From contig NZ_CP104900.1 in NCBI RefSeq assembly GCF_025449215.1, forward strand, positions 2,914,001 to 2,978,000: 64,000 nt of DNA, given 5' to 3'. Shown in pieces: positions 19,201 through 33,962 of this stretch (position 1 is the first letter of the stretch; the number at the start of each line of letters is the position of its first letter). The translations under genes and the position numbers were made by a program. Under the pieces are notes generated by a model. The model saw nothing but the letters and a program-made list of their open reading frames with translations. It was not told the origin of the DNA and made no database searches. This DNA comes from Shewanella seohaensis. GTDB lineage: Bacteria > Pseudomonadota > Gammaproteobacteria > Enterobacterales > Shewanellaceae.

Positions 19201-19568
19201 ATGGATTGCACCAGATCGAAGATCCCATCATCAACTTGATCTAAGTGTTTATCCGCCTGATGGGAGACTTGAATGTATTTATCGGCGCCGCCATAGGCCA
19301 AAATACGGTTCTGATCAGACACAGTGACGTACAGCACTTCCTTGTGACTCAGCAGCTCTTGGATCAATGACTGCAGCGTGGCGAGATCGTTGCTGATCAC
19401 CGCATCCTGCGCGGCGACCGAAAACAAGGTTAAGGTGGCCTCGGCCCGTTTTTCAATTTGCGACTGATTGGACAATTTAAGGTAGTTAATGCTGGTGTAC
19501 ACCAACAAAAACAATAGTAAGCCTTCGATTAAGGCGATCCCTAAAATGGTTTTCAGTCTAAAGGACAC
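16209..19568 (-). CDS. hybrid sensor histidine kinase with PAS, receiver and Hpt domains
   Basis: A 1119-residue inner-membrane phosphorelay kinase. It has membrane segments near residues 8-28 and 155-175 with a periplasmic sensor between, then HAMP (about 175-230) and two PAS domains (about 235-350 and 360-475). The kinase core has His507 (SHEIRSPL), N-box DNAIKF and G-box GTGLGLAI. A degenerate receiver-like domain (about 740-860) lacks the acidic pocket. A true receiver (LLAEDSPANQ, LVLMDVRMPEMDG) and an Hpt domain (AHTLKSSSGSFG) follow. One base separates it from the binding-protein gene, and eight bases from the activator gene. It most likely phosphorylates the LuxO/SypG-like regulator, as SypF does for SypG in Vibrio fischeri. 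Confidence 0.93.
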   Translation of the reverse strand: MSFRLKTILGIALIEGLLLFLLVYTSINYLKLSNQSQIEKRAEATLTLFSVAAQDAVISNDLATLQSLIQELLSHKEVLYVTVSDQNRILAYGGADKYIQVSHQADKHLDQVDDGIFDLVQSIEVNGYHFGSVSMGFETQSLENLVHTVTQQILSIAGVEMLLVALFSLLLGHYLTRNLTQLTSASKRILAGELGVRVPVNGKDEIAQMTCAFNNMVDKVDARTKALEAANIRLNTILESAVDGFVIINEFGIITDINPAVSRLFGYAHNELIGQNVSIFMPFDQRSLHDGYIQQYFTTHVAKIIGTSRELTAQRKDGQLFPIALSVSQMSIDNRAMFIGLVKDLSEAKRKEIAAAKTESVLLATLAASQDCLITIDMSGKVIEFNLAATRLFGYSREEAVGALLEDLIIPDEHHHEHRQGMAHYKQTGEGQILNKRVELQARCKAGHQIPIELEVVPIQLGDEVLFTAFLRDISERKANELKLQLAKEQAEQGSRVKSRFLATMSHEIRSPLNAILGGVELLLDSSLSKDQRIHANIAREAGSALLHTINDILDFSKIEAGQMVLESHEFEPDKLVAQVLQILEPKAFEKGLQLVSFVNRNVPRTVVGDQQRLRQVLHNLVDNAIKFTSSGTITVEMWLPDNHQTEVQLYCRVTDPGIGIAAEAQSKLFQEFSQVHDTHNTNYKGTGLGLAICSELITMMGGSIELHSELGKGSCFTFYVSLQLLDSNFCHSYYFPAHSRVLLAHQDATWLRLVSKQYSQYGVETVEVQDWPSIKRAKQFKAPFNLILLDETFFFEVDEKDVHQLRKAHLAPDGSMVALVSGMSTEIGQTLTTLGLDQVINKPLSRAMQLALLSKDALANEFEEEYVAQEKFQGHILLAEDSPANQIIAGTMLTKAGFDVTYACNGVEAVNLVDNKPLDLVLMDVRMPEMDGLEATQIILQQHPEQVILAMSANVMKEEIEHCYQVGMKDFIAKPVKQKTLLQVIQKWLPNAVVSLQSPVKPAENTASLLDEPLLAELEQTLGKASLSNMMSIFCDELAQRLENLSALKASQVDEIEDQAHTLKSSSGSFGAAALFVLARKLEACAREQQLGAIPELMAQIDVLGKQTHSVLTERFIQ

Positions 19569-19569
19569 A

Positions 19570-20472
19570 CTATTTCTCCTCGAGCGGCTTGGTTAATGTC
19601 CCCAGTTTTAATTCACGAACATCATCCCAATCCTTGTCTTCTGCCGCCACAAAGGAAGAAAAGTCGACGGATTGTAGTAAGGCTTGCCCCTGTGGCGTCG
19701 TGGATAGCGCCATTAATTGTTCGAGTAACTGCTGACGCTGCGCCTTTGTCACTCTCGGATGGGTTGCAATGGCGTGGGGCGTGTAGGTTGGCGACTGCCA
19801 AAGCACATTTAGCTGCTGTTTTTGTGCATCGGTCAAATTGTTAAAGGTGCGCTGCACCCCGCCACCAGCATCAACGAGTCCTTGAAGTACTGCTAAGTAA
19901 ACCGAGTCATGGGAGCCAACATATTTCACCTGCACATCGATATTACCCTGCTTTAAATGCGCTCTCGGTAATACGCTGGCCGCGAATGCGGCAGGTGCGG
20001 GAAAAGCTAAGGTTTTGCCCGCAAGCTCGGTTAAGGACTTTATCGGCGAATCCTTACGGACAACGAGCAATCCTTTCAGTTTTTTGTCCTTTTCCCGCGC
20101 AAGCGCTTGGTAGCCAGGTACTTCATGGAACACCACATAATGATAGGGATTCATATAGGCAATATCGTATTGCCCGTCTTTCAGGCGTTGCTCAAAGGTG
20201 GGAATATCGGGCGCCGTTGCAAATTGCAATTGATAATTTGCATTTTCGGACAAGGCCGCCAAGATTGGCGGCCATAGCTTAGCCAGTTGAATAGCCGATT
20301 GCTGAGGAACTATGCCAAAGGTCAATATGGGTTTTGTGTTTTTTGCGACGAGAGGAGCTTGGGCATTAACCGGTGAAATTAAACTTATCATAAGAATTAT
20401 CAAACAGATAAATTGCCAATGACTCGCCTTATTCGGTGTCGACTGGGTGCTTAATGTCGAAAACTTATCCAT
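19570..20472 (-). CDS. PhnD-like periplasmic substrate-binding protein, probable signal receptor
   Basis: A 300-residue protein with an N-terminal signal or anchor segment (about residues 18-37, FICLIILMISLISPVNAQA). The fold markers of the phosphate/phosphonate-binding PhnD family follow: LTFGIVPQQSA, YDIAYMNPYHYVVF, LLVVRKDSPI, LAGKTLAFPAPAAFAAS and VKYVGSHDSVYLAVLQG. No ABC permease or ATPase gene is near. Instead the gene leads an operon with a hybrid kinase and a sigma54 activator, so it more likely presents a ligand to the kinase sensor domain than imports it. A strong sigma54-type promoter lies about 75 bases upstream of its start. The ligand is unknown. Confidence 0.88.
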   Translation of the reverse strand: MDKFSTLSTQSTPNKASHWQFICLIILMISLISPVNAQAPLVAKNTKPILTFGIVPQQSAIQLAKLWPPILAALSENANYQLQFATAPDIPTFEQRLKDGQYDIAYMNPYHYVVFHEVPGYQALAREKDKKLKGLLVVRKDSPIKSLTELAGKTLAFPAPAAFAASVLPRAHLKQGNIDVQVKYVGSHDSVYLAVLQGLVDAGGGVQRTFNNLTDAQKQQLNVLWQSPTYTPHAIATHPRVTKAQRQQLLEQLMALSTTPQGQALLQSVDFSSFVAAEDKDWDDVRELKLGTLTKPLEEK

Positions 20473-20545: not shown

Positions 20546-20561
20546 AGCAACCCCTATGCCA
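20546..20561 (-). promoter_or_regulatory. sigma54 promoter of the binding protein-kinase-regulator operon
   Basis: Minus strand TGGCAT-AGGGG-TTGCT: GG and GC are exactly ten bases apart and both elements are close to consensus (TGGCAC-N5-TTGCW). Transcription would start near 20535, 63 bases before the ATG at 20472. The enhancer centre at 20643 is 83 bp from the GG. Because the operon encodes the sigma54 activator itself, this implies positive autoregulation. Confidence 0.8.
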
Positions 20562-20636
20562 CAAAAAATACCACCAATAAAAACAATCACCTTGGAGAAC
20601 ATTGCACAAAAGATAAACTCACTATGGATGACGGAT

Positions 20637-20649
20637 TTGCATTTTGCAA
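20637..20649. promoter_or_regulatory. LuxO-type enhancer site A, shared by two divergent sigma54 promoters
   Basis: TTGCATTTTGCAA, matching the palindromic TTGCANNNTGCAA recognised by LuxO. It lies 83 bp from the minus-strand -24 element and 92 bp from the plus-strand one, so a single site could serve both promoters. Confidence 0.75.
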
Positions 20650-20733
20650 CAAACTACAAAAAATCAGTCTTTAGCTTGGTCTTTTCAGCGCATGTAGACA
20701 GTATCAACCTCAATTAGCAGGCTTTTTTTAAAT

Positions 20734-20750
20734 GGGCATAGCTCTTGCTA
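20734..20750 (+). promoter_or_regulatory. sigma54 promoter of the receiver-PP2C gene
   Basis: GGGCAT-AGCTC-TTGCT with GG (20735-20736) and GC (20747-20748) ten bases apart. Transcription would begin near 20760, which excludes the upstream TTG at 20745 as start codon and supports ATG at 20784. Confidence 0.75.
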
Positions 20751-20783
20751 TCGAAGAATATTCGCCATTATCGGAGCCAGACT

Positions 20784-22019
20784 ATGCCGCTCTCTTCGTT
20801 GTCATCGATGCAAGCCGTTACCTTGTCTGTGCTGGTCGTGGAAGATACGGACAGTGAGCGCCTTTATATCACACAGCTATTGAGGCAATTTGGTTGGTTA
20901 GTTCAGAGCCTAAGCAATGGTCAGGAGGCGGTGGATTATCTCGCGCACAACGAGGTACATATTATTGTCAGCGATTGGCGCATGCCCAAGATGAATGGTA
21001 TTGAGCTGTGCCAAATCGTTAAAAATCATCAATTACCGCCCTTTGTGATCCTGTTAACTTCTAATAATCAGACCGCCGACATAGTGCTGGGTATCGAAGC
21101 CGGCGCCGATGATTTTATCTGTAAACCGTTTCACCCAGAGCTACTCAAGGTCAGAATGTTAGCCGCGATGCGTATCGTGCAGCTGCAACACCATCTGAGC
21201 CGCAACAATCAACTGTTACAACAAGGGCTGGCTAAGGAATCCGCCATGCTCAGTACCCTAAAACAAGATTTAGTTTCTGCCGCGAAAGTGCAGCGGGAAT
21301 TGCTGCCCCGCAGTAAAACCTTGCCAAGGGGCTGGCAGTTGCACCATGAGTTTCAACCCGCCCATTACCTTGCCGGGGATTTATATCAGTGTTTTGATTT
21401 GGGTGATGGTGAACTTGGTTTTTTCCTTATAGATGCCGCAGGCCATGGCGTTGCCGCCGCACTGCAGAGTGTCAGCCTTGCCCAGCGTTTGTCGCTAGAG
21501 CGAACCGATTGGCGTGGCTTGTCGCCGCAGGAGATAGTCAATCAACTCAATCGTGAGTTGAGCGATCCTGATAATACTGGCCGTTTCGTGACTCTGCTAC
21601 TTGGAAAGATCCATACCCAGACTGGCGAGCTGCGCCTGTGCAGCGCCGGCCATCCTGCGCCGTTACTGCTGAGTGAAACTGACTGCGCGCCTTTGCCTCT
21701 TGATACCGAATTGCCCCTTGGGATCCACGCCGCCGTGCAGTATCAAGATCAACTCATAAGGCTTGCACCTGGGGCTCGACTCTTGCTGTTTTCCGATGGT
21801 GCCTACGAGTGCCAACACCCTAAATTTGGTTTTTTTGGCTTAGAACGATTACAAGCCCTGTGCCGTAATGCCTACAGCCTAAACGACCAAGACTTGCTGC
21901 GCCATTTAAGCCACGCCTTAAAGCTGTGGCAAAGCGGCACAACCCAAGATGATATTTCCATGATGTTAATTACTTACCCATCTGCCAACTATGCCAATAC
22001 GGCTCTGGAGGCCCTATGA
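20784..22019 (+). CDS. response regulator with PP2C (SpoIIE/RsbU-type) phosphatase output
   Basis: A 411-residue cytoplasmic protein. The receiver domain (about residues 10-130) has the acidic pair in VVEDTD, phosphoacceptor Asp in SDWRMPKMNG and Lys in ICKPF. A coiled linker follows, then a PP2C domain (about 180-405) with metal-binding AGDLYQ, IDAAGHG, SDGAYE and the C-terminal TQDDISMML. It should dephosphorylate a STAS antagonist protein in response to phosphorylation, like RsbU or the C-terminal part of Vibrio SypE. ATG at 20784 has GGAG seven bases upstream and fits the sigma54 start site. It overlaps the kinase gene by four bases (ATGA). Confidence 0.92.
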   Translation: MPLSSLSSMQAVTLSVLVVEDTDSERLYITQLLRQFGWLVQSLSNGQEAVDYLAHNEVHIIVSDWRMPKMNGIELCQIVKNHQLPPFVILLTSNNQTADIVLGIEAGADDFICKPFHPELLKVRMLAAMRIVQLQHHLSRNNQLLQQGLAKESAMLSTLKQDLVSAAKVQRELLPRSKTLPRGWQLHHEFQPAHYLAGDLYQCFDLGDGELGFFLIDAAGHGVAAALQSVSLAQRLSLERTDWRGLSPQEIVNQLNRELSDPDNTGRFVTLLLGKIHTQTGELRLCSAGHPAPLLLSETDCAPLPLDTELPLGIHAAVQYQDQLIRLAPGARLLLFSDGAYECQHPKFGFFGLERLQALCRNAYSLNDQDLLRHLSHALKLWQSGTTQDDISMMLITYPSANYANTALEAL

Positions 22020-22411
22020 ACAGCTTGCAGTTTAATCTCACCCATGAACAGTGGCGTCAACATCCCTTCTGTGACGAGTTAGAGCAGTTTATGTTGATGC
22101 AAAATGTGCATGAACGCCAACGCTTTAAAGTGATTACCTGCGTACTCGAAGCGGTAAGTAATGTGATTAGCCATACTCAGGATACCCATGAGCCTATAGT
22201 GTTGATCGTGCATTGTAACCACGACCGTATCGTCGTCGATTTACTCGATCATTCCCCCACAGTGCCCAAGGTTGCCTTCGAGGAGTGTCCAAACCAACTG
22301 AGCGAGCATGGCCGTGGCCTGTGGATCATGTACAACTGGATGGATGCGGTGCGTTTTCAAACCACAGTGCTTGGCTCACACTTAAGATTAACCTTACTGC
22401 GTCATCATTAA
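22016..22411 (+). CDS. RsbW-like anti-sigma/serine kinase (HATPase_c_2)
   Basis: A 131-residue GHKL-fold protein with N-box VLEAVSNVISH and G-box EHGRGLWIM, typical of RsbW/SpoIIAB-type serine kinases. It is translationally coupled to the PP2C regulator by an ATGA overlap. It probably phosphorylates the STAS protein encoded at 22634 and binds it when unphosphorylated. In Vibrio SypE kinase and phosphatase activities are on one polypeptide; here the kinase is a separate protein. No sigma factor target is encoded nearby, so the downstream partner is unknown. A strong terminator follows. Confidence 0.87.
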   Translation: MNSLQFNLTHEQWRQHPFCDELEQFMLMQNVHERQRFKVITCVLEAVSNVISHTQDTHEPIVLIVHCNHDRIVVDLLDHSPTVPKVAFEECPNQLSEHGRGLWIMYNWMDAVRFQTTVLGSHLRLTLLRHH

Positions 22412-22422
22412 ACCCGATCGAT

Positions 22423-22465
22423 ACCAAATCTAGCGGTAGGCTTACCAACCGCTAGGTTTGGTTTT
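22423..22465 (+). terminator. rho-independent terminator after the PP2C-kinase pair
   Basis: A 15-bp stem (22423-22437 with 22448-22462, one G-U pair) whose right arm runs into TTTT. It isolates the phosphatase-kinase transcript from the downstream STAS/export operon, which has its own sigma54 promoter. Confidence 0.85.
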
Positions 22466-22483
22466 CGTGTTACACAATCCCCA

Positions 22484-22496
22484 TTGCAAATTGCAA
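22484..22496. promoter_or_regulatory. LuxO-type enhancer site B
   Basis: TTGCAAATTGCAA, matching TTGCANNNTGCAA; its centre is 81 bp upstream of the -24 GG at 22571. Confidence 0.75.
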
Positions 22497-22569
22497 TGCA
22501 TTTTCAAATCTGACTATAGCGCCCAGTTAACAAGCAAAATAACCACCTGATTTTAATCAATAAAAATCT

Positions 22570-22586
22570 TGGCCTGATAAATGCTT
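22570..22586 (+). promoter_or_regulatory. sigma54 promoter of the STAS/export operon
   Basis: TGGCCT-GATAA-ATGCT, GG (22571-22572) and GC (22583-22584) ten bases apart. Transcription would start near 22596, with the STAS ATG at 22634. It shares the TGGCCT-N5-ATGCTTT form with the promoter at 29932. Confidence 0.7.
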
Positions 22587-22633
22587 TCTGAAGATGCGGT
22601 TTCAATACTAACTGGCAGGCAGAGGTGATTATC

Positions 22634-22975
22634 ATGAAATTCTTCCCACTTGAAAAATACAACGCGAGCCTAGTGATATTTCCAACCGAGATGATGATGG
22701 CCAACACGCCCACCCACAGGGCCGCGCTATTGCGCCATATGGAGCAGAACACCAACCGCTTAATCATCAATCTTGAACAAGTGAAATATATCGACTCTAG
22801 CGGATTGTCGGTGCTGATCTCCGCCCTTAAGCGGGCGCAGCAACAAGATGGTGAAATTCTGCTGTTATCACCCTCGGCCCATGTGCGTGCCCTGATCGAA
22901 CTGACGCGCTTACATCAGATATTCAGTATTTATGAAGATCAAGACGCGGCCATCGCGCACTTTAGTTGCCACTAG
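22634..22975 (+). CDS. STAS-domain anti-sigma-factor antagonist (SypA-like)
   Basis: A 113-residue single-domain STAS protein. The phosphorylatable serine motif YIDSSGLSVLI is intact, preceded by the usual NLEQVK strand. It should cycle between phosphorylated and free forms under the kinase at 22016 and phosphatase at 20784. In Vibrio fischeri SypA, the equivalent STAS protein, controls biofilm polysaccharide export at a post-transcriptional level, and the gene order here (STAS then Wza-like exporter) is similar. ATG at 22634 has GAGG upstream. Its direct effector is not known. Confidence 0.9.
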   Translation: MKFFPLEKYNASLVIFPTEMMMANTPTHRAALLRHMEQNTNRLIINLEQVKYIDSSGLSVLISALKRAQQQDGEILLLSPSAHVRALIELTRLHQIFSIYEDQDAAIAHFSCH

Positions 22976-23010
22976 TTCAGCGTGAGCATCAGCTAAGAGG
23001 GAGTGACATC

Positions 23011-24279
23011 ATGGAAACCTTATCACACCGCCATGTAGGCAAGATTGAATGCAAACGCCGTTTTTCCTTTAGCCTAGCAACCCTAGGCGCCTCTATTTGC
23101 ATGTTAACGGCCTGCGTCACTCCCCAGCGCACCACTCAGGACCAACTCTGTCAGCAACAGGCCGGAGAATATTGCCACTACTTTGGGCCACAAACCTCCT
23201 ATCTGCGTCAGGCGGATCAACAGTTGTTAACAGCGCAAACGGAAAACCTCAGTTTTAATCCAACAGCAGTTCAAAACGTTAGCGCCACATTCAGCGATAC
23301 TGCCGCCTTAGATGTGCAGCTCTCTGTGGGTGATAAATTGCGGGTAGGAGTTTTACATGGCGAGGATTTCAGTGCCGATGTCGAAATTGATGCCAACGGC
23401 CAAATCTATCTGCCCTACTTACCGCCCATCAATGCCCAAGGCTTAACAATCGCCTCCCTCAAGCAGCGCATAAGTCAAACCTTAGTGAGCGAGCAATTGA
23501 TGCAGGCCAGCAGTGTGCGCGTCAATATCAGCCCCATCGCCTGGGCACCGATTGAAGTGACCGTATTAGGTTCAGTGTTTGAACCTGGGCAGCACTTTAT
23601 CAATCAAAAATCCGATACCGAAATTAAGGATGACGATAAGAGCCATAGCGGCGATCAGGCCAGTGATAGAACCATAGCCGCCGCCCTTCGCGCATCCGGA
23701 GGTGTTAGACCCGACGCCCAGATCCGCCAGGTACGCGTGATCCGCGGCCAGCAACATTTTTTACTGGATTTATCTGGGGTAATTAGCGGCACCCAAGTGC
23801 CACGTTTCCTCTTAAGTGCTGGCGATCAAATCTTTGTCCCAAGTACCCGTCGTTTTGAGGATAAACTGGTGCGTCCCTCGCAGATCACCGCGCCTGGGAT
23901 CCGGGTGTTTATTTCAAACTTAACCCAACCGGCGAGCAGTAACTCACAATCTGCCGTCGATACCGAAGCGACACGTTTCCCCTACGGCACACGTCTGCTC
24001 ACAGGTGCGATTGCGGCCAACTGTGTTGGCGGCGCCCAAAGCACCAATGCCAGTCGCCATGTGTTACTGGTGACCCGCAATCCGCTCTCGGATCAAACCG
24101 ATATCGTCGAGCGTTCATTGGACAGCTTGATCCGTGAGTCTTGGCAGCCACAAATGAACCCCGTGTTGCTCCCCGGTGACGGCATCGCCTGTTATGACTC
24201 TGGCGTGACCAATGTGCGTGAGATTGCGCGCAGCTTAACCGACTTACTGGTGCCCGCAAGTTTACTCGGTTTGCTGTAG
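23011..24279 (+). CDS. Wza-family outer-membrane polysaccharide export lipoprotein
   Basis: A 422-residue lipoprotein: the signal sequence ends in the lipobox LTAC near residue 31. The polysaccharide export domain follows (VGDKLRVGVLHGEDFSADVEIDANGQIYLPYL), then SLBB-like segments (APIEVTVLGSVFEPGQ and FLLSAGDQIFVPS). It would form the outer-membrane exit channel for the polymer made by this locus. A long internal linker rich in Asp, Ser and Lys (around residues 205-230) interrupts the first SLBB region. ATG at 23011 has GAGGGAG upstream. It is in the operon with the STAS gene and the chain-length protein. Confidence 0.9.
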   Translation: METLSHRHVGKIECKRRFSFSLATLGASICMLTACVTPQRTTQDQLCQQQAGEYCHYFGPQTSYLRQADQQLLTAQTENLSFNPTAVQNVSATFSDTAALDVQLSVGDKLRVGVLHGEDFSADVEIDANGQIYLPYLPPINAQGLTIASLKQRISQTLVSEQLMQASSVRVNISPIAWAPIEVTVLGSVFEPGQHFINQKSDTEIKDDDKSHSGDQASDRTIAAALRASGGVRPDAQIRQVRVIRGQQHFLLDLSGVISGTQVPRFLLSAGDQIFVPSTRRFEDKLVRPSQITAPGIRVFISNLTQPASSNSQSAVDTEATRFPYGTRLLTGAIAANCVGGAQSTNASRHVLLVTRNPLSDQTDIVERSLDSLIRESWQPQMNPVLLPGDGIACYDSGVTNVREIARSLTDLLVPASLLGLL

Positions 24280-24346
24280 TACGAAACCAGCGCTTGGGTG
24301 ACAGATTACGTCACCCCTAGGACGATTCGACGAGGGGACATTGATC

Positions 24347-25759
24347 ATGAAAGCATCTCAGGAAGGCTACCCTCTACTGTGGTTAAAGCGTGCGCTGGTC
24401 AATGGCAGCAGCCTGCCCGCCCCCGCCCGCCGTAAGTTATATCTAAAGACCGTGTTGTCGGCATTAGCGGTGATTTGGCTGATCACAGGTCTTGTCATCG
24501 TTATCACCCCAACCCGCTATACCTGCAAATGGGTGTTGATTTTACCCGGTGCGGGCGCAGGCGCCGTCGTGAGTTTGGACAGCCTAGGTCAAGCCAGCAG
24601 TTCGAGCAGTTCTCCTTATCTGAGTTCTGCCATCGATCCACGGGAAAACTACAAGGCCATCGCCTTAAGCGACAAGCTATTAAGCGATGCCGCAGCGCAA
24701 TTAGACCTAAAAGCCTCAGCGCTGGGCACGCCTAAGTTAAAACTCCCCAGCCAAACTGGACTGATGGAGTTCAGTATCAGCGCTAACAGCGCCGAGCTTG
24801 CCGAGCAAAAGGCATGGGCACATTACCGCACTCTGCAGGGCACACTCTCACACCTGAGAATCGATGAAATCCATATCCGTGAAAACGGCGTCAGAATGGG
24901 ACTGGAGAGCTTTGCCGATAAAGTGCATCAGAGTCAGGCCAATATTGTCGCCTTCCAATCTAAGACTGGGCTGGTCTCGTTGGATCAATTTAAGGAAGTG
25001 GCGGTCACCATTGAGCATTTACGCCAAAGCCAAGTCAATCTTACCGCTAAACTCAATGGCGGCCTTGCCAGTCAGCAACTGTTGGAGGCCGATTTATCCC
25101 TGACGGCAACCCAATCCACTGACTTGCTCAAGCTGAAAAATGATCAGCTGTTCCAACAACTCTTATTCAAATATACCGAATCGACCGCGCTACTGGTGGG
25201 GCTCAATGGTCATTATGGCGAGCAACATCCGCAAGTGCTGAGCGCCAAGACAGAGCAAAAAACCATGTTGGCTGCATTGCATAGCCGCTGCCAAAAATTG
25301 TTGGCGCGCTGCGATCCAAAGTTGATGTTGATCCTCTCCGTCGATGATATCGATGGCCGCGCCGCGCTGATGCAAAAACTGATTAATATCACCACAGAAA
25401 ACGAAGGCTTAGCCCATGAACTGGCGTCCTTGAGCACCCAGATTGATGAATGGGAAACCCGGCTAAAACACAGTAATGACGACGCCGCTAAGCTTGAGGA
25501 TTTACACCGCGACCATCAACTTGCCACCGCAGTGTTTACTTCCGCGATTGCTAAAATTGATGTGGGTAAGGCCGACATCTTCTCCGCTTACCCGTTATTA
25601 CAGCTGTTTGCAGCACCGACTCGCCCCGAAAAGCCTGACAAGCTGGGCTTGATTCTAACCTTAGTGGGTGGCATTGCCGCCTCAATGATGGTCATTGTCG
25701 GATTGAGCATACTATGGATACGCAAACCTATACTCCAGAAAATTCTGACGAACGACTAG
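24347..25759 (+). CDS. Wzz/GumC-type chain-length determinant protein, no kinase domain
   Basis: A 470-residue inner-membrane protein with a first membrane segment at about residues 36-56, a large periplasmic coiled region and a second membrane segment near the C terminus (LGLILTLVGGIAASMMVIVGL), preceded by the typical proline-rich PTRPEKPDK. This is the polysaccharide co-polymerase layout. No Walker A motif or tyrosine-rich tail follows, so it lacks the autokinase part of Wzc. It would set polymer length and link to the Wza-like exporter. The next gene starts 46 bases before its stop. Confidence 0.87.
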   Translation: MKASQEGYPLLWLKRALVNGSSLPAPARRKLYLKTVLSALAVIWLITGLVIVITPTRYTCKWVLILPGAGAGAVVSLDSLGQASSSSSSPYLSSAIDPRENYKAIALSDKLLSDAAAQLDLKASALGTPKLKLPSQTGLMEFSISANSAELAEQKAWAHYRTLQGTLSHLRIDEIHIRENGVRMGLESFADKVHQSQANIVAFQSKTGLVSLDQFKEVAVTIEHLRQSQVNLTAKLNGGLASQQLLEADLSLTATQSTDLLKLKNDQLFQQLLFKYTESTALLVGLNGHYGEQHPQVLSAKTEQKTMLAALHSRCQKLLARCDPKLMLILSVDDIDGRAALMQKLINITTENEGLAHELASLSTQIDEWETRLKHSNDDAAKLEDLHRDHQLATAVFTSAIAKIDVGKADIFSAYPLLQLFAAPTRPEKPDKLGLILTLVGGIAASMMVIVGLSILWIRKPILQKILTND

Positions 25760-27048
25760 TCTGGTTCGCCATTACGGGCACTTACTTCTTTTGGTTCTTA
25801 GGTGCCATGTATTTGATTGCCCCAGTGATTGGTTGGATCTTAGTGCTGCGAATGCTCGGCAGACTGCTGTTTTACGCAGAAGGATGCCGGATTTCGTTAC
25901 CGATAATAAGTTGGATATTTGCCATGTTGTTGATGCTACTGGCATTAGTCATAGGCCATCTGGTAGAGCATTTAGGCATAGCCCAATTGATTAAATCCTC
26001 CATTGGTTGGGCTAAGGGCTGGGCGCTGCTGGCGGTATTTCCGCTGATTGGCGGTTTGCACATTCGGCCACAGCTGATTTACCGCGCCTGCTGTGTGGTC
26101 GGCAAACATACCTTGATATTGTTTCCGCTGTTTGTACTCGCTTGGCTGCTCCACCTGCCGACGACCTTATATGTCTCCCCCTTAAGCATTGTCGGCGGAC
26201 CTGGGCCTGAATTTTTTGCCGTCAGCCTGTATGAAATCGACCCTGGCAGCGGTATGCCAAGGTGGCGGCTATTTACCCCTTGGGCGCCTGCACTTGGCAT
26301 GGTAGGCAACTTTTATTTTCTGTTTGCCCTGCAGGAAACCAACAAGCGTTATCGCTTCTATGGCTTGGCTGGCAGTATCTTGATGGTACTTATCTCCCAA
26401 TCCAGACTCGCCATCCTCTGCTGCCTTGCCCTCGTCTGTTATTTCAACTTTATTCGCTATGCCAAATCCCCTTGGTTGTATTTATTGGTGAGTCCATGTT
26501 TTTTATTAGCGGGCATTTTTGGCGAGGCGGTACTGTCTAGCATTGAAGCCAGTATTCACAGCGTTAAAGCCGCCAGAGCCGACTCGACTCGGGTACGTGA
26601 GGCCCTTGGCCAAATCGCCCTCGAGCGCTGGGCAAACGAGGCGATTGTCTGGGGCCATGGCATTGTTGAGCGCGGCCCCCATATGGTGGAGTACATGCCG
26701 ATTGGCTCGCACCACACTTGGTACGGCCTTTTGTTTGTGAAGGGGATCGTTGGCGCCTTCGCACTGGCGTTGGCCTTGTTTGTCAGCGTGCTCTGCCTGC
26801 TACCCAGTTTGATGCAATCGAGACTCTCGGCGGTAGGAATGGCGGTACTGATGATTTTACTGCTTTACACCTTTGGTGAGAATCTGGAGATCCTCGCCTA
26901 TCTCTTCTGGCCAGGACTCATAGTGCTCGGTATTGCCCACAATCAGGCAAGACAAGCGGCAAGTCTTCGCCATAAGAGCTCATTATTGGAACCATCACAA
27001 CAATCATCGCAACAATCATCAGAAGCCACTCAACCGAGTGCTCAGTGA
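25714..27048 (+). CDS. Wzy/O-antigen-ligase-type polysaccharide polymerase
   Basis: A 444-residue protein with about ten membrane segments and a large loop in the second half. That loop contains the ligase/polymerase signature region (IVWGHGIVERGP, then GSHHTWYGLLFVKGIVG). It would polymerise lipid-linked repeat units on the periplasmic face. It overlaps the preceding gene by 46 bases. The C-terminal tail is Ser/Gln rich with short repeats (QQSSQQSSE). Ligase versus polymerase cannot be separated by sequence alone; the context favours polymerase. Confidence 0.82.
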   Translation: MDTQTYTPENSDERLVWFAITGTYFFWFLGAMYLIAPVIGWILVLRMLGRLLFYAEGCRISLPIISWIFAMLLMLLALVIGHLVEHLGIAQLIKSSIGWAKGWALLAVFPLIGGLHIRPQLIYRACCVVGKHTLILFPLFVLAWLLHLPTTLYVSPLSIVGGPGPEFFAVSLYEIDPGSGMPRWRLFTPWAPALGMVGNFYFLFALQETNKRYRFYGLAGSILMVLISQSRLAILCCLALVCYFNFIRYAKSPWLYLLVSPCFLLAGIFGEAVLSSIEASIHSVKAARADSTRVREALGQIALERWANEAIVWGHGIVERGPHMVEYMPIGSHHTWYGLLFVKGIVGAFALALALFVSVLCLLPSLMQSRLSAVGMAVLMILLLYTFGENLEILAYLFWPGLIVLGIAHNQARQAASLRHKSSLLEPSQQSSQQSSEATQPSAQ

Positions 27049-27105
27049 GATCCCTTCGAGAGTTTTTCGTTGTCATTTCAATACTCGCGGCCGTTGCAAC
27101 TTGAT

Positions 27106-27118
27106 TTGCATTTTGCAA
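27106..27118. promoter_or_regulatory. LuxO-type enhancer site C
   Basis: TTGCATTTTGCAA, identical to site A, in the 216-base gap between the polymerase and flippase genes. Its centre is 101 bp upstream of the candidate -24 element at 27213. Confidence 0.7.
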
Positions 27119-27211
27119 TGGACCGCAACGCCTAAGGATCTGCTAAATCGCAATCTAGCCAATATGTTTCTAAACATATGTTTTTAAACCATAAAATAAA
27201 CATTAAAAAGC

Positions 27212-27228
27212 TGGCATAGAAACTGAAT
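27212..27228 (+). promoter_or_regulatory. candidate sigma54 promoter of the flippase gene
   Basis: TGGCAT-AGAAA-CTGAA: a good -24 element, but the -12 position reads GA instead of GC, so the match is incomplete. Position relative to enhancer site C fits the other four promoters. Confidence 0.45.
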
Positions 27229-27264
27229 AGTCAGAAAAGGCACTCTTAACTGATAGGTGTTGCG

Positions 27265-28593
27265 ATGAGCAGATGGGCATTGATACAAACCCTCAGGGAC
27301 AACCAAGGTATTCGCCAATTGGCTAGCAGCATACTTTGGTTATGCTCTGCTCAAGTTGGCGGGCGCATCGTGCGCCTTGGCAGCAGTATCATCTTAGCCC
27401 GTTTACTCACACCCGAGGTCTTCGGTCAAGTCGCGATCATTTTGACCAGTTTTGAGATCCTCAGCATTTTCATCCGCAGGATCACTTCGGCGTTGCTGAT
27501 CAAGATGGACGACAACGCCTTTACCGCTCATCTTGCCAGCGCCAATCTGATCAATATTTTTGTGTGTGTACTGTCTTTTGTTGCCTTGAGCTTACTCAGT
27601 GGATTGCTCGCCCTTTACTATCAAGACGCACAGATAGTGAAACCTATGATACTCATGGCAACAAGCTATTTGCTCCTCCCCTTTGGCATGCTGCATGCCG
27701 CCGCCAACCTACGCCAAAATAAGATGCGTATCGTTGCAAAAGCCAACCTGTGGCAGACGGTGGCCGATGGTTTGCTCACCGCCCTCCTAGCGTTATGCGG
27801 AATGGGGATTTGGGGGATTATTCTGCCCAAGGTGCTGGTGGTCTTGATTTGGATTGCCGTGCACAAGCAACATTCGGGTATTAATAATATTCACACCACC
27901 CCATTAGCGCATTGTTTCTCCAAGATAGATTTTGGCCAATGTCGCGCGCTATTTCATTTTGGTACTCAGGTGGCGCTTGGGGATCTTTGTCTCGCCCTGA
28001 GACAAAATATTGATTATTTATTAGTGGGTTACTTTTTAGGTGTCGAAGCGCTTGGGATCTATTTCTTCGCGGTCAATACCAGCCTTGGCATAAGCCTTGG
28101 TCTTATTCAAAGCTTTGGCACCGCTTTTTACTCCCATCTTTGTCAGAGTGATGGTGAAGATGCGCTGCTAAAGTATCGCCACGCTCTGCTGAGTATCATG
28201 CTGGTAACCTTGCCTATCATAGGGTTACAGAGTACGCTCGCCCCTTGGTACTTACCCTTTGTCTATGGCCAACACTGGCTCGACGCTGGCGCATTGCCAG
28301 TCTTTATTCTGCTCTGTTTAAGTGGCCTAACTCGCCCCTTAGGCGAGGCCGCAAGCCAATTGCTGATTTCCTGCGAGCTTAGCAAACTCAACTTAGTCGC
28401 CAATGCTAGTTTTATTGGCCTACTGGCCATGAGTATCAGCCTAGGCACCCTGTGGGGGCTAGAAGGCGTCGCCATGGGCATCTTCCTCTGTTATCTGATT
28501 TGTATGCCTTTGTTCGCCTATTTTGTGATGAAACCCACCGCACAAAAACTGCGTTTACCCACTTTATCCCCTTCATTAGGAGGTTCATTATGA
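27265..28593 (+). CDS. Wzx-type polysaccharide flippase
   Basis: A 442-residue protein with twelve or so membrane segments. The N terminus has the polysaccharide-flippase signature (SSILWLCSAQVGGRIVRLGSS, LARLLTPEVFGQVAI) of the MOP superfamily, close to the WzxC/lipopolysaccharide O-unit branch. It would turn undecaprenyl-linked repeat units to the periplasmic side for the polymerase. The stop codon overlaps the start of the glycosyltransferase gene (ATGA). It is preceded by enhancer C and a candidate sigma54 promoter. Confidence 0.9.
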   Translation: MSRWALIQTLRDNQGIRQLASSILWLCSAQVGGRIVRLGSSIILARLLTPEVFGQVAIILTSFEILSIFIRRITSALLIKMDDNAFTAHLASANLINIFVCVLSFVALSLLSGLLALYYQDAQIVKPMILMATSYLLLPFGMLHAAANLRQNKMRIVAKANLWQTVADGLLTALLALCGMGIWGIILPKVLVVLIWIAVHKQHSGINNIHTTPLAHCFSKIDFGQCRALFHFGTQVALGDLCLALRQNIDYLLVGYFLGVEALGIYFFAVNTSLGISLGLIQSFGTAFYSHLCQSDGEDALLKYRHALLSIMLVTLPIIGLQSTLAPWYLPFVYGQHWLDAGALPVFILLCLSGLTRPLGEAASQLLISCELSKLNLVANASFIGLLAMSISLGTLWGLEGVAMGIFLCYLICMPLFAYFVMKPTAQKLRLPTLSPSLGGSL

Positions 28594-29645
28594 TCCCTAC
28601 CGTCTCTGTCGTGATGCCGGTCTATAATGTGGAAGCTTTTGTATCAAAAGCCATTTCCTCTGTATTAGCTCAAAGTTTTACGGATTTTGAGCTAATCATA
28701 GTCAATGACTGTGCCACCGATAATAGCCTTGCCCGCTGTAAACAATTTTGCGACAGCCGCATTCGACTGGTGCAGCACGCCGTGAATAAGGGGTTAGCCG
28801 CCGCGCGCAATACCGGCATTCGCCATGCGATTGGTCGCTATGTCGCCTTTATCGATTCGGACGACCTCTGGCATCCAGATAAGTTAAAGCTGCATGTGGA
28901 TCACCTACAAAAGTCGCCTAAAGTCGGGATAAGCTTCTCGCGCTCAAGCTTTATCGATTATCGGGGCAACCCGATCAATTTTTACCAGATGCCGCAGCTC
29001 ACAGACATTGATGCTGGCCATTTGCTGTGCCGCAACCCGGTGGGTAATGGCTCAGCGCCGGTGATCCGCCGCGAGACCTTAAATGACATTCGCTTCCAAG
29101 CGCTGAACCACAGCGAACATTACACTTGTTATTTCGATGAACAATTTCGCCAATCGGAAGATATCGAGTGTTGGTTTCGCATCGTGGCGACAACCCAGTG
29201 GCAAATGGAGGGGATCCCCGAGCCATTAACTTACTATCGCTTAAACCACGGCGGCTTGTCGGCGAATTTAGTGAAACAACTGGCATCCTGGGAGCAAATG
29301 GTCACTAAGGCGCGCCGCTATGCTCCTAAGATATTGCTAAAGCATGAAAATGCCGCCAGAGCCTATCAGCTTCGCTATTTAGCCAGACAAGCCATTCGCC
29401 TAGGCGATGGCCGTATGGCGAAAAATTTAGTCAATCAAGCGTTGCTGACTTCGCCGCAGATCTTAATCAAGGAAACCAATCGCACCCTGACCACGCTGGT
29501 CGCGGCCTATCTGCAATGGCTAATGCCCCGCGGTATATATCAAATGTGCGAAACCCTTGGGCAAAAGTACCTAGGCTATCGCCAACGTATGCAAATCAAA
29601 CGTGATGGGGTGACGGCAAGCTTACTCACGACCCAATTAAAATGA
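28590..29645 (+). CDS. family 2 glycosyltransferase
   Basis: A 351-residue GT-A enzyme. The N-terminal domain shows VSVVMPVYNVEAF, then FELIIVNDCATDNS, GLAAARNTGI and the metal-binding DXD region YVAFIDSDDLW; a later acidic motif EDIECWFRI is also typical. It would add one sugar to the lipid-linked repeat unit in the cytoplasm. ATG at 28590 follows a strong AGGAGG and overlaps the flippase stop; the longer open frame upstream is the flippase gene in another frame. Acceptor and donor are unknown. A strong terminator lies 47 bases after the stop. Confidence 0.9.
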   Translation: MIPTVSVVMPVYNVEAFVSKAISSVLAQSFTDFELIIVNDCATDNSLARCKQFCDSRIRLVQHAVNKGLAAARNTGIRHAIGRYVAFIDSDDLWHPDKLKLHVDHLQKSPKVGISFSRSSFIDYRGNPINFYQMPQLTDIDAGHLLCRNPVGNGSAPVIRRETLNDIRFQALNHSEHYTCYFDEQFRQSEDIECWFRIVATTQWQMEGIPEPLTYYRLNHGGLSANLVKQLASWEQMVTKARRYAPKILLKHENAARAYQLRYLARQAIRLGDGRMAKNLVNQALLTSPQILIKETNRTLTTLVAAYLQWLMPRGIYQMCETLGQKYLGYRQRMQIKRDGVTASLLTTQLK

Positions 29646-29691
29646 GATAAATGGCAGTATTAACCGTGACACATTTATCGTTTGCAGATTT

Positions 29692-29720
29692 AAGGCGGCT
29701 CATACAGCCGCCTTGCTTTT
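29692..29720 (+). terminator. rho-independent terminator after the glycosyltransferase gene
   Basis: Perfect 9-bp stem AAGGCGGCT-catac-AGCCGCCTT followed by GCTTTT. It separates the export/flippase genes from the teichoic-acid-like gene group. Confidence 0.8.
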
Positions 29721-29844
29721 GTCGTAAGCCGCACTCTATGACTTTGATATTGATTTCGAACCTTTGTTTTCAAGCATTGGTGATGAAGACAATAACAACG
29801 CCTGAGATAGTCACTCCCTAGCCGATACTTCCATCTCAAAGGAT

Positions 29845-29857
29845 TTGCAGCATGCAA
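29845..29857. promoter_or_regulatory. LuxO-type enhancer site D
   Basis: TTGCAGCATGCAA, matching TTGCANNNTGCAA; centre 82 bp upstream of the -24 GG at 29933. Confidence 0.75.
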
Positions 29858-29931
29858 AGCAAACTGCGAAAAACCACTTAGCCTATCAAACAAAAACACC
29901 TTAGCCATTGTTTTTAAATAAGTTATCAATC

Positions 29932-29948
29932 TGGCCTGCATTATGCTT
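29932..29948 (+). promoter_or_regulatory. sigma54 promoter of the teichoic-acid-like gene group
   Basis: TGGCCT-GCATT-ATGCT with GG (29933-29934) and GC (29945-29946) ten bases apart; nearly the same as the promoter at 22570. Transcription would start near 29958, 70 bases before the first start codon. Confidence 0.75.
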
Positions 29949-30027
29949 TGTGACTCTTGCCAAGCGCACAACTAAGCCGTTATCGAGCGTACCTACTTGG
30001 CACTAAGCGAAATGCATGGAGGTCATG

Positions 30028-31974
30028 ATGAATACTCAGAACTCGACTCAAGTACGCTGGTCTATTCGACTCTTCGATAGCGCAGTGGCGGCGTTGGCCC
30101 TATTGATCTGCTTGCCCTTTATCCTTGGCGTTTGTGTGTTTCGTAAGCTTCAGGCACAAAGCGTATTCGAACGCGTATATGTACATGGCGCTCAAGGCCA
30201 AGTGGGTCTGTGGCAATTTGCCTATCAAGGTGCGGGGTATCGCCTGCCGCAAGTGCTGAATCTAATCAAAGGAGACATTGGCCTGTTGGGCGCTGAAGCG
30301 CAGTTTGCCATCGAACCTTTAATCCATGCTCCAGAAGAAACCCGTATCTCTCGGATCGGGATTTTCTCGATTAGTGCCATGCAGCGCCGTATGGGGATAG
30401 AGTTTGAGTCCAGCGAGCAAAGTTTAGTTAACGCCTATAGCAACCTCAGTCGTTACCTCCTTGCACTAGCGAGCGCCATACTGAATCGTCTTATGACCTC
30501 AGAGTCACGCTCACACGCAAGTCAAGTCACAATTTTTGGCGTGACCATGCGTAATCTCAGCATGAATCAAATGCTGGATATGCTCGTACAACAAGCGCAG
30601 CGGACAAAGCATCACTTAACCCCGTTTGCCTTTGTGAATGCCGACTGTTTAAACAAAGCCTATTGCGATCCTCAATATCATCAAAAACTCAATGAGTGCG
30701 AGGCCGTGTTTGCCGATGGGATTGGTGTACGTATGGCTTGCCGTTGGCAAGGTGTCGATCTTAAAGGCAATTTGAATGGCACCGATATGTTGCCACTCCT
30801 ATGTGAGCGCCTGATTGAGGCCAATCTGTCGCTCTATCTTCTAGGCGGTGCGCCAGAAGTGGCCCACCAAGCTGCTGAACAGTTGCAACGCCGTTTTCCC
30901 CAATTGCAAATTGCAGGCACACATCATGGTTATTTCCATGAGGCTGATACCAAGCAAGTCATTAAAAAGATTAATCAATCTGGCGCTGCCGTGCTGTTGG
31001 TGGCCATGGGAGCACCTAAACAAGAGCTTTGGCTTAATCAATATCAAGCAAAACTCACTCCAGCCGTTGGGATCGGTGTGGGCGGGCTGTTCGATTTTTA
31101 CTCCAACCGCATTAGCCGTGCCCCGCTCTGGTTAAGACAAATTGGCATGGAGTGGATTTGGCGGTTAATGCAAGAACCCAAGAGAATGTGGCGCCGCTAT
31201 ATTATTGGTAATCCCCTGTTTTTATATCGGGTATACAAAGCGCTGCGTGCTAACGCCAGCCTCAAGGCGACAACTCAAGCAGTGGCACAGTCGCAAGAAA
31301 CGCTGTTGTATCCTAACTTGAGTGACTCAGGCTCACTCAAACGTTGCAAACGCATCCGCTTGCATCTGCTATTAAACCGCATCGTCAAACGTTGCCTCGA
31401 TATATGGGTCGCGGCCATCGCCATATTGTTGCTATCGCCTCTGCTCTTGATAGTCGCGTTACTTATCCGTTTAGAATCCCCCGGCGCTGTGCTGTTTTGC
31501 CAGCAGCGCGTCGGTAAGTGGAATCAACCTTTTACCATGTGGAAGTTCCGCTCCATGTACCAAGACGCCGAGGCGCGGCTCGTCAGCCTACAACAGGCGA
31601 ACGAAATGCAAGGCGGTGTGCTGTTTAAGATGAAACAAGATCCTCGCATCACCCGTGTCGGTCAATTTATCCGTAAAACCTCCATCGATGAGCTGCCACA
31701 GTTATGGAATGTGCTCAAGGGCGAGATGTCACTGGTTGGTCCGCGCCCAGCGCTGCCAAGAGAAGTCGCGCAATACAGCCCAAGCGATCGCCGCCGTTTA
31801 GAGGTGAAACCCGGCATTACCTGTATCTGGCAAGTGTCTGGCCGCTCTGACATTCCCTTCGACCGCCAGGTCGAGTTGGATGTGGATTATATCTACCAAC
31901 AATCTTTAATGGCGGATCTGTACTTGCTACTCAAGACCATACCCGCCGTGATTTTCAGCCGTGGAGCCTACTAA
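30028..31974 (+). CDS. fusion: degenerate sugar transferase + WecG/TagA glycosyltransferase + active sugar-phosphate transferase
   Basis: A 648-residue protein with three parts. Residues about 8-95 resemble a bacterial sugar transferase (a membrane hairpin, then LPQVLNLIKGDIGLLGAE) but lack most of the domain and the catalytic Asp-Glu pair. Residues about 165-395 are a WecG/TagA/CpsF (GT26) domain with FVNADCLNKAY, FADGIGVRMA, GTDMLP, LYLLGGAPEV and MGAPKQELW. Residues about 445-648 form a complete WbaP/WcaJ-like transferase (WKFRSMY, SIDELPQLWNVLKGEMSLVGPRP, KPGITCIWQVSGR). It would both start the lipid-linked unit and add the second sugar. ATG at 30028 has GGAGG five bases upstream. TagA performs the second step of wall teichoic acid linkage synthesis in Bacillus. 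Confidence 0.88.
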   Translation: MNTQNSTQVRWSIRLFDSAVAALALLICLPFILGVCVFRKLQAQSVFERVYVHGAQGQVGLWQFAYQGAGYRLPQVLNLIKGDIGLLGAEAQFAIEPLIHAPEETRISRIGIFSISAMQRRMGIEFESSEQSLVNAYSNLSRYLLALASAILNRLMTSESRSHASQVTIFGVTMRNLSMNQMLDMLVQQAQRTKHHLTPFAFVNADCLNKAYCDPQYHQKLNECEAVFADGIGVRMACRWQGVDLKGNLNGTDMLPLLCERLIEANLSLYLLGGAPEVAHQAAEQLQRRFPQLQIAGTHHGYFHEADTKQVIKKINQSGAAVLLVAMGAPKQELWLNQYQAKLTPAVGIGVGGLFDFYSNRISRAPLWLRQIGMEWIWRLMQEPKRMWRRYIIGNPLFLYRVYKALRANASLKATTQAVAQSQETLLYPNLSDSGSLKRCKRIRLHLLLNRIVKRCLDIWVAAIAILLLSPLLLIVALLIRLESPGAVLFCQQRVGKWNQPFTMWKFRSMYQDAEARLVSLQQANEMQGGVLFKMKQDPRITRVGQFIRKTSIDELPQLWNVLKGEMSLVGPRPALPREVAQYSPSDRRRLEVKPGITCIWQVSGRSDIPFDRQVELDVDYIYQQSLMADLYLLLKTIPAVIFSRGAY

Positions 31975-31984
31975 GGGGGTTACT

Positions 31985-33493
31985 ATGCAAGCCATTATTT
32001 TTGCCAATCGCCATGGACACGAACTGGCGCCGCTGGATAAACAATACTGTCCAGCATTACTCCCCATGGGAAACCGTGCCCTGATTGAATACACCCTAGA
32101 AGATGTCGCCAGCGCGGGGATTGTTGAGGTAAAACTGATTATCTCAAGCCATGCCAAAGCCTTAGAGCAGCATCTTGGCGACGGTAGCCGCTGGGGCGTT
32201 AAGATTGATTACTTCCTCAGTAGAGAACAAGAACCGGTTAACTGCGTAATGTCGCGCTTAAAACTGGATTTCGACCAAAGCTACCTTGTGGTAAGGGGCG
32301 ATATATTGCGCTCTCCCTGCATCAAACGTTTTGTCGATTACAGTGTTAACAGACCCAAACACTTAGTCCTGCCAGTGCTGGCCGATTGCAATCCTGGCAT
32401 GTTGCTATTGCCAAGTGCTTGTAATCACCTGTATCTGCTCGATTGGCCGTTGGAGCGAGATCCAAATATTACTAATGCCATGATGGAGCCGCTCCATGGA
32501 CAATGCGCCATGTTGGACAACTTCGAGTCCTACTTAAATGCCAACTTAGCGATCGGCGATGGTTGCTTCGATGGACTCGTGCCCTCAGGCCGTCCTATTC
32601 CAAGCGGTCGAAGCGCCAAGTTTTTTCACCTTGGGGCTAAGGCGCAAACGGGCAAATTAGACCAACAAGCAGCTTGGGGCGCAATTGGTGAGCAAACCTG
32701 GATTGCCCCCGATGTGGATATGCACGATCAACTGATGATAGGCGATCAATGTGTTATCGAGAAAAACTGCCGTTTGAGTAACAGCGTGATTTTAACCAAC
32801 AGTTTTGTCGGTGAAGGCTTGAATGTCGATAACTGCATTATCAGTAAAAACCTGCTGATTAATGTTGGCTTTAATACCGCCATTGAAGTTGAAGACCCTA
32901 GGCTTATCGCCTCAACCCAAGCACAGTTGCAGGCCAATGTGCCATGGACAAGTCGGCTTATGGCTTTGATATTACTTGGCCTTAGTGTTCCACTCTTGGT
33001 AATACTCTGGCTGTGGAGTCTGTGCAATTCATCAACTGCTGGCGCATCAAGGCAGGCGCTGAGTATTACGCATCAGCCCATTACACTCTGGCGCGTCAAT
33101 CTGCCGCAATCCTGCATGGGATTAGCACTGCTGCCACAACTCTATCAAGTGTGTCTGGGGCGCTTGTTTCTGCTAGGCGCTCAATCCCCCGAGGTACATT
33201 CAGCCGTCTCGATTAGCGACGCTGCGCCGCAATATGGCGTTTACGGCCCGCTGCAGCTGCTTGGCGCCGAACTGCCAGAGGAAGAACAAGCGCTGATTGA
33301 GCAGGAGTTTCTGGCCAAGCCTAAGGCAGCGCAATGGTCCCACATACTCAAACTGTGTTTAGTGTCGCTTTCAACATCAGTAGTTTCAACAGGCGCTACC
33401 ACGCCAACACAATCCAATGCAAATAAGCTTAGTGCAAGCCAACTTACTCCAAACCAGCAAGATATCGCCAATGAATGGGGGAACGGACAATGA
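31985..33493 (+). CDS. degenerate nucleotidyltransferase/beta-helix protein with C-terminal sugar-transferase-like tail
   Basis: A 502-residue protein. The N-terminal half resembles sugar-phosphate nucleotidyltransferases (PALLPMGNRALIEYTLEDV) and is followed by hexapeptide-type beta-helix repeats (IGDQCVIEKNCRLSNSVI). The glycine-rich nucleotide-binding motif is altered: it reads FANRHGHELAPL where active enzymes have AGG-GTRL-PLT, losing the key Gly-Gly and Arg. A membrane segment near residue 325 and a short region LLPQLYQVCLGRLFLLGA recall the sugar-transferase fold without its catalytic motif. It may therefore be a scaffold or regulator rather than an enzyme. It overlaps the tagD start. 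ATG at 31985 has GGGGG upstream. Confidence 0.75.
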   Translation: MQAIIFANRHGHELAPLDKQYCPALLPMGNRALIEYTLEDVASAGIVEVKLIISSHAKALEQHLGDGSRWGVKIDYFLSREQEPVNCVMSRLKLDFDQSYLVVRGDILRSPCIKRFVDYSVNRPKHLVLPVLADCNPGMLLLPSACNHLYLLDWPLERDPNITNAMMEPLHGQCAMLDNFESYLNANLAIGDGCFDGLVPSGRPIPSGRSAKFFHLGAKAQTGKLDQQAAWGAIGEQTWIAPDVDMHDQLMIGDQCVIEKNCRLSNSVILTNSFVGEGLNVDNCIISKNLLINVGFNTAIEVEDPRLIASTQAQLQANVPWTSRLMALILLGLSVPLLVILWLWSLCNSSTAGASRQALSITHQPITLWRVNLPQSCMGLALLPQLYQVCLGRLFLLGAQSPEVHSAVSISDAAPQYGVYGPLQLLGAELPEEEQALIEQEFLAKPKAAQWSHILKLCLVSLSTSVVSTGATTPTQSNANKLSASQLTPNQQDIANEWGNGQ

Positions 33494-33918: not shown

Positions 33919-33962
33919 GCAGAACCCAATTACAGGATCTCAATGGGTAAGCGAGGGATATC

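Follow-up and report, generated by a model that had tools for sequence, protein, structure and literature searches.

A predicted syp-like sigma54 regulon over a Shewanella polysaccharide locus, with helically spaced activator sites and a non-canonical wzx promoter

The locus, its activator sites and its sigma54 promoters

We analysed a 64,000-nt stretch of the Shewanella seohaensis genome (contig NZ_CP104900.1, positions 2,914,001 to 2,978,000; "the window", whose own coordinates are used throughout) that carries a polysaccharide locus with regulatory genes at one end (Table 1). Assembled beside the polysaccharide genes are a kinase with an Hpt domain, an NtrC-type activator, a receiver-SpoIIE protein, an RsbW-like kinase and a STAS protein with Ser56. 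Four exact copies of TTGCANNNTGCAA (at 20637, 22484, 27106 and 29845) lie in intergenic regions and serve five sigma54 promoters. An earlier note on this DNA, which had placed each of these sites before a sigma54-type promoter, was borne out, with every site exact, the promoters read directly and site 20637 serving two of them. Because that site is flanked by two divergent promoters, with distances (d, site centre to promoter GG) of 83.5 and 92.5 bp, the regulator operon is a predicted target of its own activator. The distances, recomputed as 81.5, 82.5, 83.5, 92.5 and 101.5 bp, agreed with those listed in the note, as did the presence of GG-N10-GC in four of the five promoters and of GA in the promoter at 27212, although the GA proved to be a conserved trait and not a lone exception (see below).

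Table 1. Features of the polysaccharide locus and its regulatory genes. Promoter classes are given in brackets; d is in bp.
Feature	Position	Strand	Basis
sigma54 response-regulator activator, 502 amino acids: receiver, AAA+ with GAFTGA, Fis-type helix-turn-helix (HTH)	14692..16200	-	Pfam, translation, nearest solved structure LuxO 5ep0, tree
Hybrid histidine kinase: HAMP, PAS, HisKA, HATPase, receiver, Hpt	16209..19568	-	Pfam, translation
PhnD-like periplasmic binding protein, perhaps the kinase's sensor partner	19570..20472	-	Pfam; NCBIfam PhnD score under cut-off
Exact activator-type site within PhnD-like gene, codons 82-86	20217..20229	.	motif match; synonymous conservation
sigma54 promoter, PhnD/kinase/activator operon (div) TGGCATAGGGGTTGC	20547..20561	-	read directly; d 83.5
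Activator site 1, common to both divergent promoters	20637..20649	.	exact match TTGCANNNTGCAA
sigma54 promoter, receiver-SpoIIE/RsbW-like operon (rr) GGGCATAGCTCTTGC	20734..20748	+	d 92.5
Receiver plus SpoIIE-type phosphatase, resembles C-terminal part of SypE	20784..22019	+	Pfam, translation
RsbW-like kinase, resembles N-terminal part of SypE	22016..22411	+	Pfam, translation
Imperfect inverted repeat then T, terminator-like; not listed by first hairpin scan	22423..22462	+	after RsbW-like gene
Activator site 2	22484..22496	.	exact match TTGCANNNTGCAA
sigma54 promoter, STAS/export operon (stas) TGGCCTGATAAATGC	22570..22584	+	d 81.5
STAS protein with Ser56, SypA-like	22634..22975	+	Pfam, alignment
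Export (Poly_export), chain-length-like and O-antigen-ligase/Wzy-like genes	22966..27048	+	Pfam, NCBIfam
Activator site 3	27106..27118	.	exact match TTGCANNNTGCAA
sigma54 promoter of wzx, non-canonical -12 (GA) TGGCATAGAAACTGA	27212..27226	+	d 101.5; conserved T/A
Wzx-type flippase and family 2 glycosyltransferase	27265..29645	+	Pfam
Terminator-like hairpin after glycosyltransferase gene	29692..29714	+	hairpin scan and reading
Activator site 4	29845..29857	.	exact match TTGCANNNTGCAA
sigma54 promoter, tagA operon TGGCCTGCATTATGC	29932..29946	+	d 82.5
WecG/TagA-sugar transferase fusion, nucleotidyltransferase, CTP-transferase-like gene, CDP-glycerol glycerophosphotransferase in two frames	30016..35359	+	

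The exact motif occurred eight times in the 4,751,888-bp genome, compared with three times when read backwards, and six of the eight copies fell in the window; at the control density, the Poisson probability of six sites in 64 kb is 6e-12 and that of four in 10 kb is 7e-11. The four exact sites outside the intergenic set (window 20217 and 54070; genome 434413 and 2428692) all lay within open reading frames (ORFs). For sites 54070, 434413 and 2428692, GG-N10-GC occurred at 153-200 bp but not at 30-150 bp, and the best candidate for 20217, at 47.5 bp, matched poorly, so that these scans gave none of the four a promoter at 60-150 bp. The genome-wide search for a paired motif that the earlier note had proposed (site plus promoter, gap 55-85, a range that leaves out promoters 20734 and 27212) returned three matches, all in the locus, against none for the backwards control; across 116 family genomes there were 90 matches, vs. 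12 backwards and 23 when the register was moved by one base. A loose sigma54 promoter scan of the window was uninformative (599 matches vs. 590 by chance). A perfect IHF match lay between enhancer and promoter in one of the five spacers (shuffle p 0.018, uncorrected), and since it was only one, we claim no general role for IHF.

A single Sigma54_DBD match indicated that rpoN is present in the genome, and phospho-acceptor residues could be read in the translations of the relay proteins. Together the sites and the locus-encoded activator support the earlier proposal that the whole polysaccharide locus, about 20 kb, forms one predicted sigma54 regulon with LuxO-type sites. As the locus encodes the relay proteins with their phospho-sites, we infer that a single phosphorelay may control it.

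Distribution of the locus

The receiver-SpoIIE protein had matches in 47 of the 116 family genomes, 40 of them in one genus (own genome included) and seven in a second, and we fetched the best match from all 39 other genomes of the first genus and from the seven of the second. We identify the first genus as Shewanella, since 22 of the 80 named loci had the same DNA as loci of this set, and all 22 carried a Shewanella title. The activator gene lay beside the receiver-SpoIIE gene in all 39 other Shewanella loci and was absent from the seven stretches of the second genus. A kinase match was found in 38 of the 39, in two of these at only 27-36%. The STAS protein matched that of Shewanella strain ANA-3 at 97%.

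Nearly the whole locus was also present in Alloalcanivorax marinus, with an activator that falls within the Shewanella side of the tree described below, which suggests horizontal transfer. Ten Moritella-like stretches (activators 66-68%; names inferred) had no match to the polysaccharide or STAS genes of the locus and no exact site, and therefore gave no phasing data.

Enhancer-promoter distances across Shewanella

The window and the 39 other Shewanella loci (set 1) provided 160 promoters, after removal of those scoring <6.5 (<8 for the div class), of one wzx promoter (L066) whose match overlaps the STAS promoter, and of one mis-picked rr promoter (L103); in later loci, div promoters below 8.5 and all promoters below 7.8 were left out. 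A site within one mismatch was found at 132 of the 160 promoters and was exact at 91. The best period was 10.70 bp (R 0.51), and when repeats of the same class and distance were removed, the remaining 71 values gave R 0.41, a level reached by none of 400 smoothed nulls. With repeats kept, the rr, stas, wzx and tagA classes each exceeded all 400 nulls, and the div class did not (p 0.42).

Unique distances from all Shewanella loci located the signal at wzx (n=19, R 0.76) and tagA (n=19, R 0.60), neither value being reached by any of 1000 uniform nulls, and the period at these two promoters across the genus was 10.7-11 bp. The wzx distances ranged from 68.5 to 146.5 bp, near every turn. A held-out set of 20 Shewanella loci (from 58 non-duplicates among the 80) yielded 44 site-promoter pairs that kept the common phase (p 3e-4) and, more sharply, class-specific phases (p 2.7e-7), with mean cosines of 0.83 for wzx, 0.78 for tagA, 0.35 for rr, 0.25 for stas and -0.08 for div. 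Twenty-five of 82 sister pairs differed by at least 4 bp, and 17 of these 25 differed by near whole turns (p 0.008). Eight pairs from genera other than Shewanella gave p 0.15. The compared distances thus make a strong case for phasing at the wzx and tagA promoters across Shewanella, and are suggestive for the STAS promoter.

SypG-type loci as an independent comparison

Sixteen stretches were fetched for SypG-type activators, 13 of which gave 41 promoters that could be classed by a short downstream peptide, with names assigned by us. A SypG-type site within one mismatch was present at 38 of the 41, and the best-site distances clustered at 56.5-58.5, 67.5-70.5 and 78.5-80.5 bp; an earlier, unclassed listing of these stretches also included a few distances outside the clusters (e.g., 84.5, 103.5, 113.5 and 130.5 bp). 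The 38 promoters gave R 0.91 at 11.0 bp, a value inflated by shared ancestry, and the 17 unique combinations of class and distance gave the fairer R 0.90; in both cases none of 500 nulls was as high. As judged from these spacings, phasing is sharper in the SypG-type syp loci than in Shewanella, and it occurs with a different site. These stretches all come from one family (f21), in which a Qrr RNA lay beside the LuxO-type gene in three of three stretches and sypA-, sypI-, sypM- and sypP-like genes were present, so we assign this family, provisionally, to the Vibrionaceae.

A conserved non-canonical -12 element at wzx

The -12 base of the wzx promoter was T (38) or A (9) in all 47 cases across the Shewanella loci, whereas the other four promoter classes had C in 179 of 180. 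All 43 wzx promoters that have a site retain TGGCA and the TG of the -12 element. As the scoring favoured C, any selection bias runs against this result. The SypG-type loci showed the same pattern, with A at -12 in nine of nine sypM-like promoters and C in 31 of 32 of the other classes. Two more T/A promoters, upstream of an OmpA-like gene (L217 5124 and L222 4669), were unclassed and stand outside these counts. By this comparison, the wzx promoter has a conserved deviation at -12, and its GA at 27212 is not decay. In Vibrio fischeri, sypM is described as heading one of the four syp operons, listed as sypA, sypI, sypM and sypP (PMC10804989). Since the consensus GC at -12 is reported to border a repressive fork junction (PMC4496707), an altered base could change promoter leak or opening.

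The non-C base, together with the failure to find a strong terminator between wzy and wzx by hairpin scan and reading, might instead indicate that this promoter is unused and that wzx is read through from the upstream operon. We consider this quite unlikely, given that the promoter elements and the non-C base are so uniformly retained and that phasing is strongest in the wzx class, which would not be expected of a promoter out of use.

Identity of the activator

The nearest solved relative of the activator was LuxO (5ep0, E 1.5e-143), and it scored 666.5 bits with the NCBIfam LuxO model, below the cut-off of 800. In a 73-row tree, the Shewanella, Moritella-like and Alloalcanivorax activators were grouped together by one branch (37 rows, 100/99), separate from a LuxO group (4 rows, 99/99; names inferred) and a SypG-like group (15 rows, 100/100); the deep order of the tree is unsure because two outgroup branches are very long. 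The HTH reads GNVPKAAALLDISPSTIYRK and shares PKAA with the LuxO rows, while the SypG-like rows resemble GNVLNAAVLLELSPSTVYRK. No exact TTGCANNNTGCAA-type site occurred in any of the 16 stretches fetched for SypG-type activators, one of which (L219) has a LuxO-group activator by the tree. The LuxO-like HTH fits both the LuxO-type site here and this absence. Tree placement and HTH together indicate that the activator belongs to a third clade: it is not orthologous to LuxO or to SypG, and its recognition region resembles that of LuxO. The LuxO/SypG-type label of the earlier note therefore describes its architecture correctly (receiver, GAFTGA and Fis-type HTH are present) and its orthology not.

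Thirteen further proteins of the genome matched the activator query at 137 bits or more and might bind these sites instead, but this is very unlikely because the locus encodes its own activator, always beside the SpoIIE gene (39 of 39 loci), with an HTH resembling that of LuxO, to which this type of site is ascribed (PMC10162802), and the next best match is only 43% identical.

A site within the PhnD-like gene

The exact site at 20217, which is missing from the site list of the earlier note, was present in 12 of 36 aligned PhnD-like genes, including that of the window. Codons 74-90 showed a codon-homozygosity excess of 0.44 vs. a gene mean of 0.13 (32 sequences scored), a value reached by six of 169 codon windows, itself counted, and by none of 20,000 permutations, uncorrected for the choice of region. 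Many relatives had a second near-match 21 bp away, of which the window's copy (20238-20250) is degraded. Seven loci with a PhnD-like gene had no divergent-promoter site within one mismatch (L066, L070, L091, L093, L133, L135 and L141), and six of these seven carried the exact intragenic site; since several of the loci are close relatives, the six may represent one or two events.

The neighbourhood of the PhnD-like and kinase genes (16209-20472) recalls LuxP/LuxQ, a periplasmic binding protein and a hybrid kinase. If the parallel holds, the PhnD-like protein would be the signal receptor; its gene is missing from some relatives.

A model for the regulon and its alternatives

We propose, with a probability of about 80%, that the polysaccharide locus is governed by a syp-like sigma54 regulon, dedicated and self-amplifying. 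A signal, perhaps perceived via the PhnD-like protein, would lead the kinase to phosphorylate the activator, which would bind TTGCANNNTGCAA and contact sigma54 polymerase through a short DNA loop at all operons, including its own. The same relay would set the balance of phosphatase and kinase acting on the STAS protein, adding post-transcriptional control as a second gate. Where the site acts at short range, most of all at the wzx and tagA promoters, it would have to face the polymerase, so that spacers stay near whole helical turns, and the non-canonical -12 of wzx probably sets the strength, leak or opening of that operon.

Several observations weigh against this model. With one mismatch allowed, the number of sites in the window was not above chance (eight vs. 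a mean of 5.6, with 20 of 100 shuffles reaching eight), so the enrichment rests on the exact sites. Twenty-eight of the 160 set 1 promoters had no site within one mismatch, one locus (L096) had no kinase match, and the PhnD-like gene was matched in 23 of the 39 loci, some lacking it. Phasing was weak when only the window's five distances were considered (10.7 bp, R 0.80, p 0.034; the period scan likewise gave p 0.034). Among unique distances from all Shewanella loci, phasing was not significant at div (p 0.98), rr (p 0.47) and stas (p 0.14), so the claim that all sites face their promoters alike stands for wzx and tagA across the genus and is not supported for the divergent promoters. Restricting the held-out loci to exact sites left 22 pairs (p 0.19), and the 14 held-out combinations of class and distance that were new relative to set 1 were not significantly phased (p 0.19).

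This last result also favours a rival in which the periodic spacing is not mechanical: ancestral tandem sites about two turns apart would have lost different copies in different lineages, and shared ancestry would repeat a small number of distances. Site pairs about 22 bp apart do exist in single promoters (sypA-like, 57.5/79.5; L104 stas, 69.5/91.5), as does the 21-bp pair inside phnD. Against this, the wzx distances lie near every turn over their whole range, the sister pairs that differ do so mostly by near whole turns, and a two-turn tandem spacing would itself suggest a facing requirement. We regard tandem-site ancestry as rather unlikely.

Comparison with known systems

The syp locus of V. 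fischeri is described as having four sigma54 operons with SypG sites (PMC10804989), and SypE is reported to control SypA via Ser56, the residue that SypE phosphorylates (PMC4517449, PMC3610818). At the level of sequence, the Shewanella locus shares both traits: several operons of one polysaccharide locus, each with a sigma54 promoter and activator site, under a locus-encoded response regulator (PMC10804989), and a SypA-type STAS protein with Ser56 under a phosphatase/kinase response regulator (PMC3610818, PMC4517449). Ser56 was invariant in nine of nine aligned STAS proteins, its phosphorylation being a prediction. The two systems differ in that the Shewanella intergenic sites are TTGCANNNTGCAA and the syp sites TTCTCANNNTGM; SypE is one protein with kinase, receiver and phosphatase, functions that Shewanella splits over two proteins; the Shewanella activator is in a clade other than SypG; and, unlike in syp, the regulator genes form a divergent operon that has a sigma54 promoter of its own. 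The Shewanella locus is predicted to work like syp, but its site sequence, the clade of its activator and its SypE architecture set it outside syp. Literature listings searched with Shewanella and syp-type terms contained no description of a syp-type locus in Shewanella.

SypG and LuxO sites are reported to overlap at qrr1 (PMC10162802). The LuxO/qrr system shares the palindrome, the recognition region and sigma54 with the Shewanella locus. The intergenic sites conform to the LuxO site TTGCAWWWTGCAA, with WWW in three of four and GCA at 29845, and the three stretches that carry a Qrr RNA have the site 68.5-71.5 bp from the GG. The differences are that the Shewanella targets are polysaccharide operons, that the activator forms a separate clade and that it falls below the LuxO model cut-off; a Qrr search covering the window gave no match in its 64 kb. 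PEP-CTERM/exopolysaccharide loci generally combine a locus-linked sigma54 response regulator with export genes, a pattern also seen here. The activator scored 371.9 bits with the PEP-CTERM regulator model (cut-off 502.6), and the PEP-CTERM export and chain-length models were likewise below cut-off in the Shewanella locus.

More broadly, and tentatively, for we hold it somewhat less probable than its opposite, regulons of the LuxO/SypG class might evolve their enhancer-promoter distance in whole turns, keep a G-T/G-A -12 in one interior operon (wzx; sypM) that presets its strength, leak or timing, and use a further enhancer in synonymous PhnD-like codons to replace a lost intergenic site. The many natural spacer lengths of one module make sigma54 enhancer facing testable against evolution, beyond a few insertions; a departure from the usual C of the sigma54 -12 element has been conserved in one defined operon, that of wzx; and syp-type two-level control would be brought to Shewanella. 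The conserved spacing and the odd wzx promoter may be new: the literature listings searched contained no report of evolutionary phasing or of a class-specific -12, a novelty that is provisional.

Other features of the window

The CDP-glycerol glycerophosphotransferase gene (33963-35359) is in two frames in the window and in a single frame for both halves in four of four relatives with both matches (L064, L087, L118 and L123). Downstream of the polysaccharide locus lies a phage-type integrase gene (40572-41588). An Rfam HPnc0260 match at 4106-4258 (-) overlaps one of two tRNA genes and is probably spurious. Finally, an AcrB-type efflux gene (45379-48545) is represented by two overlapping ORFs that match consecutive parts of the Pfam model.

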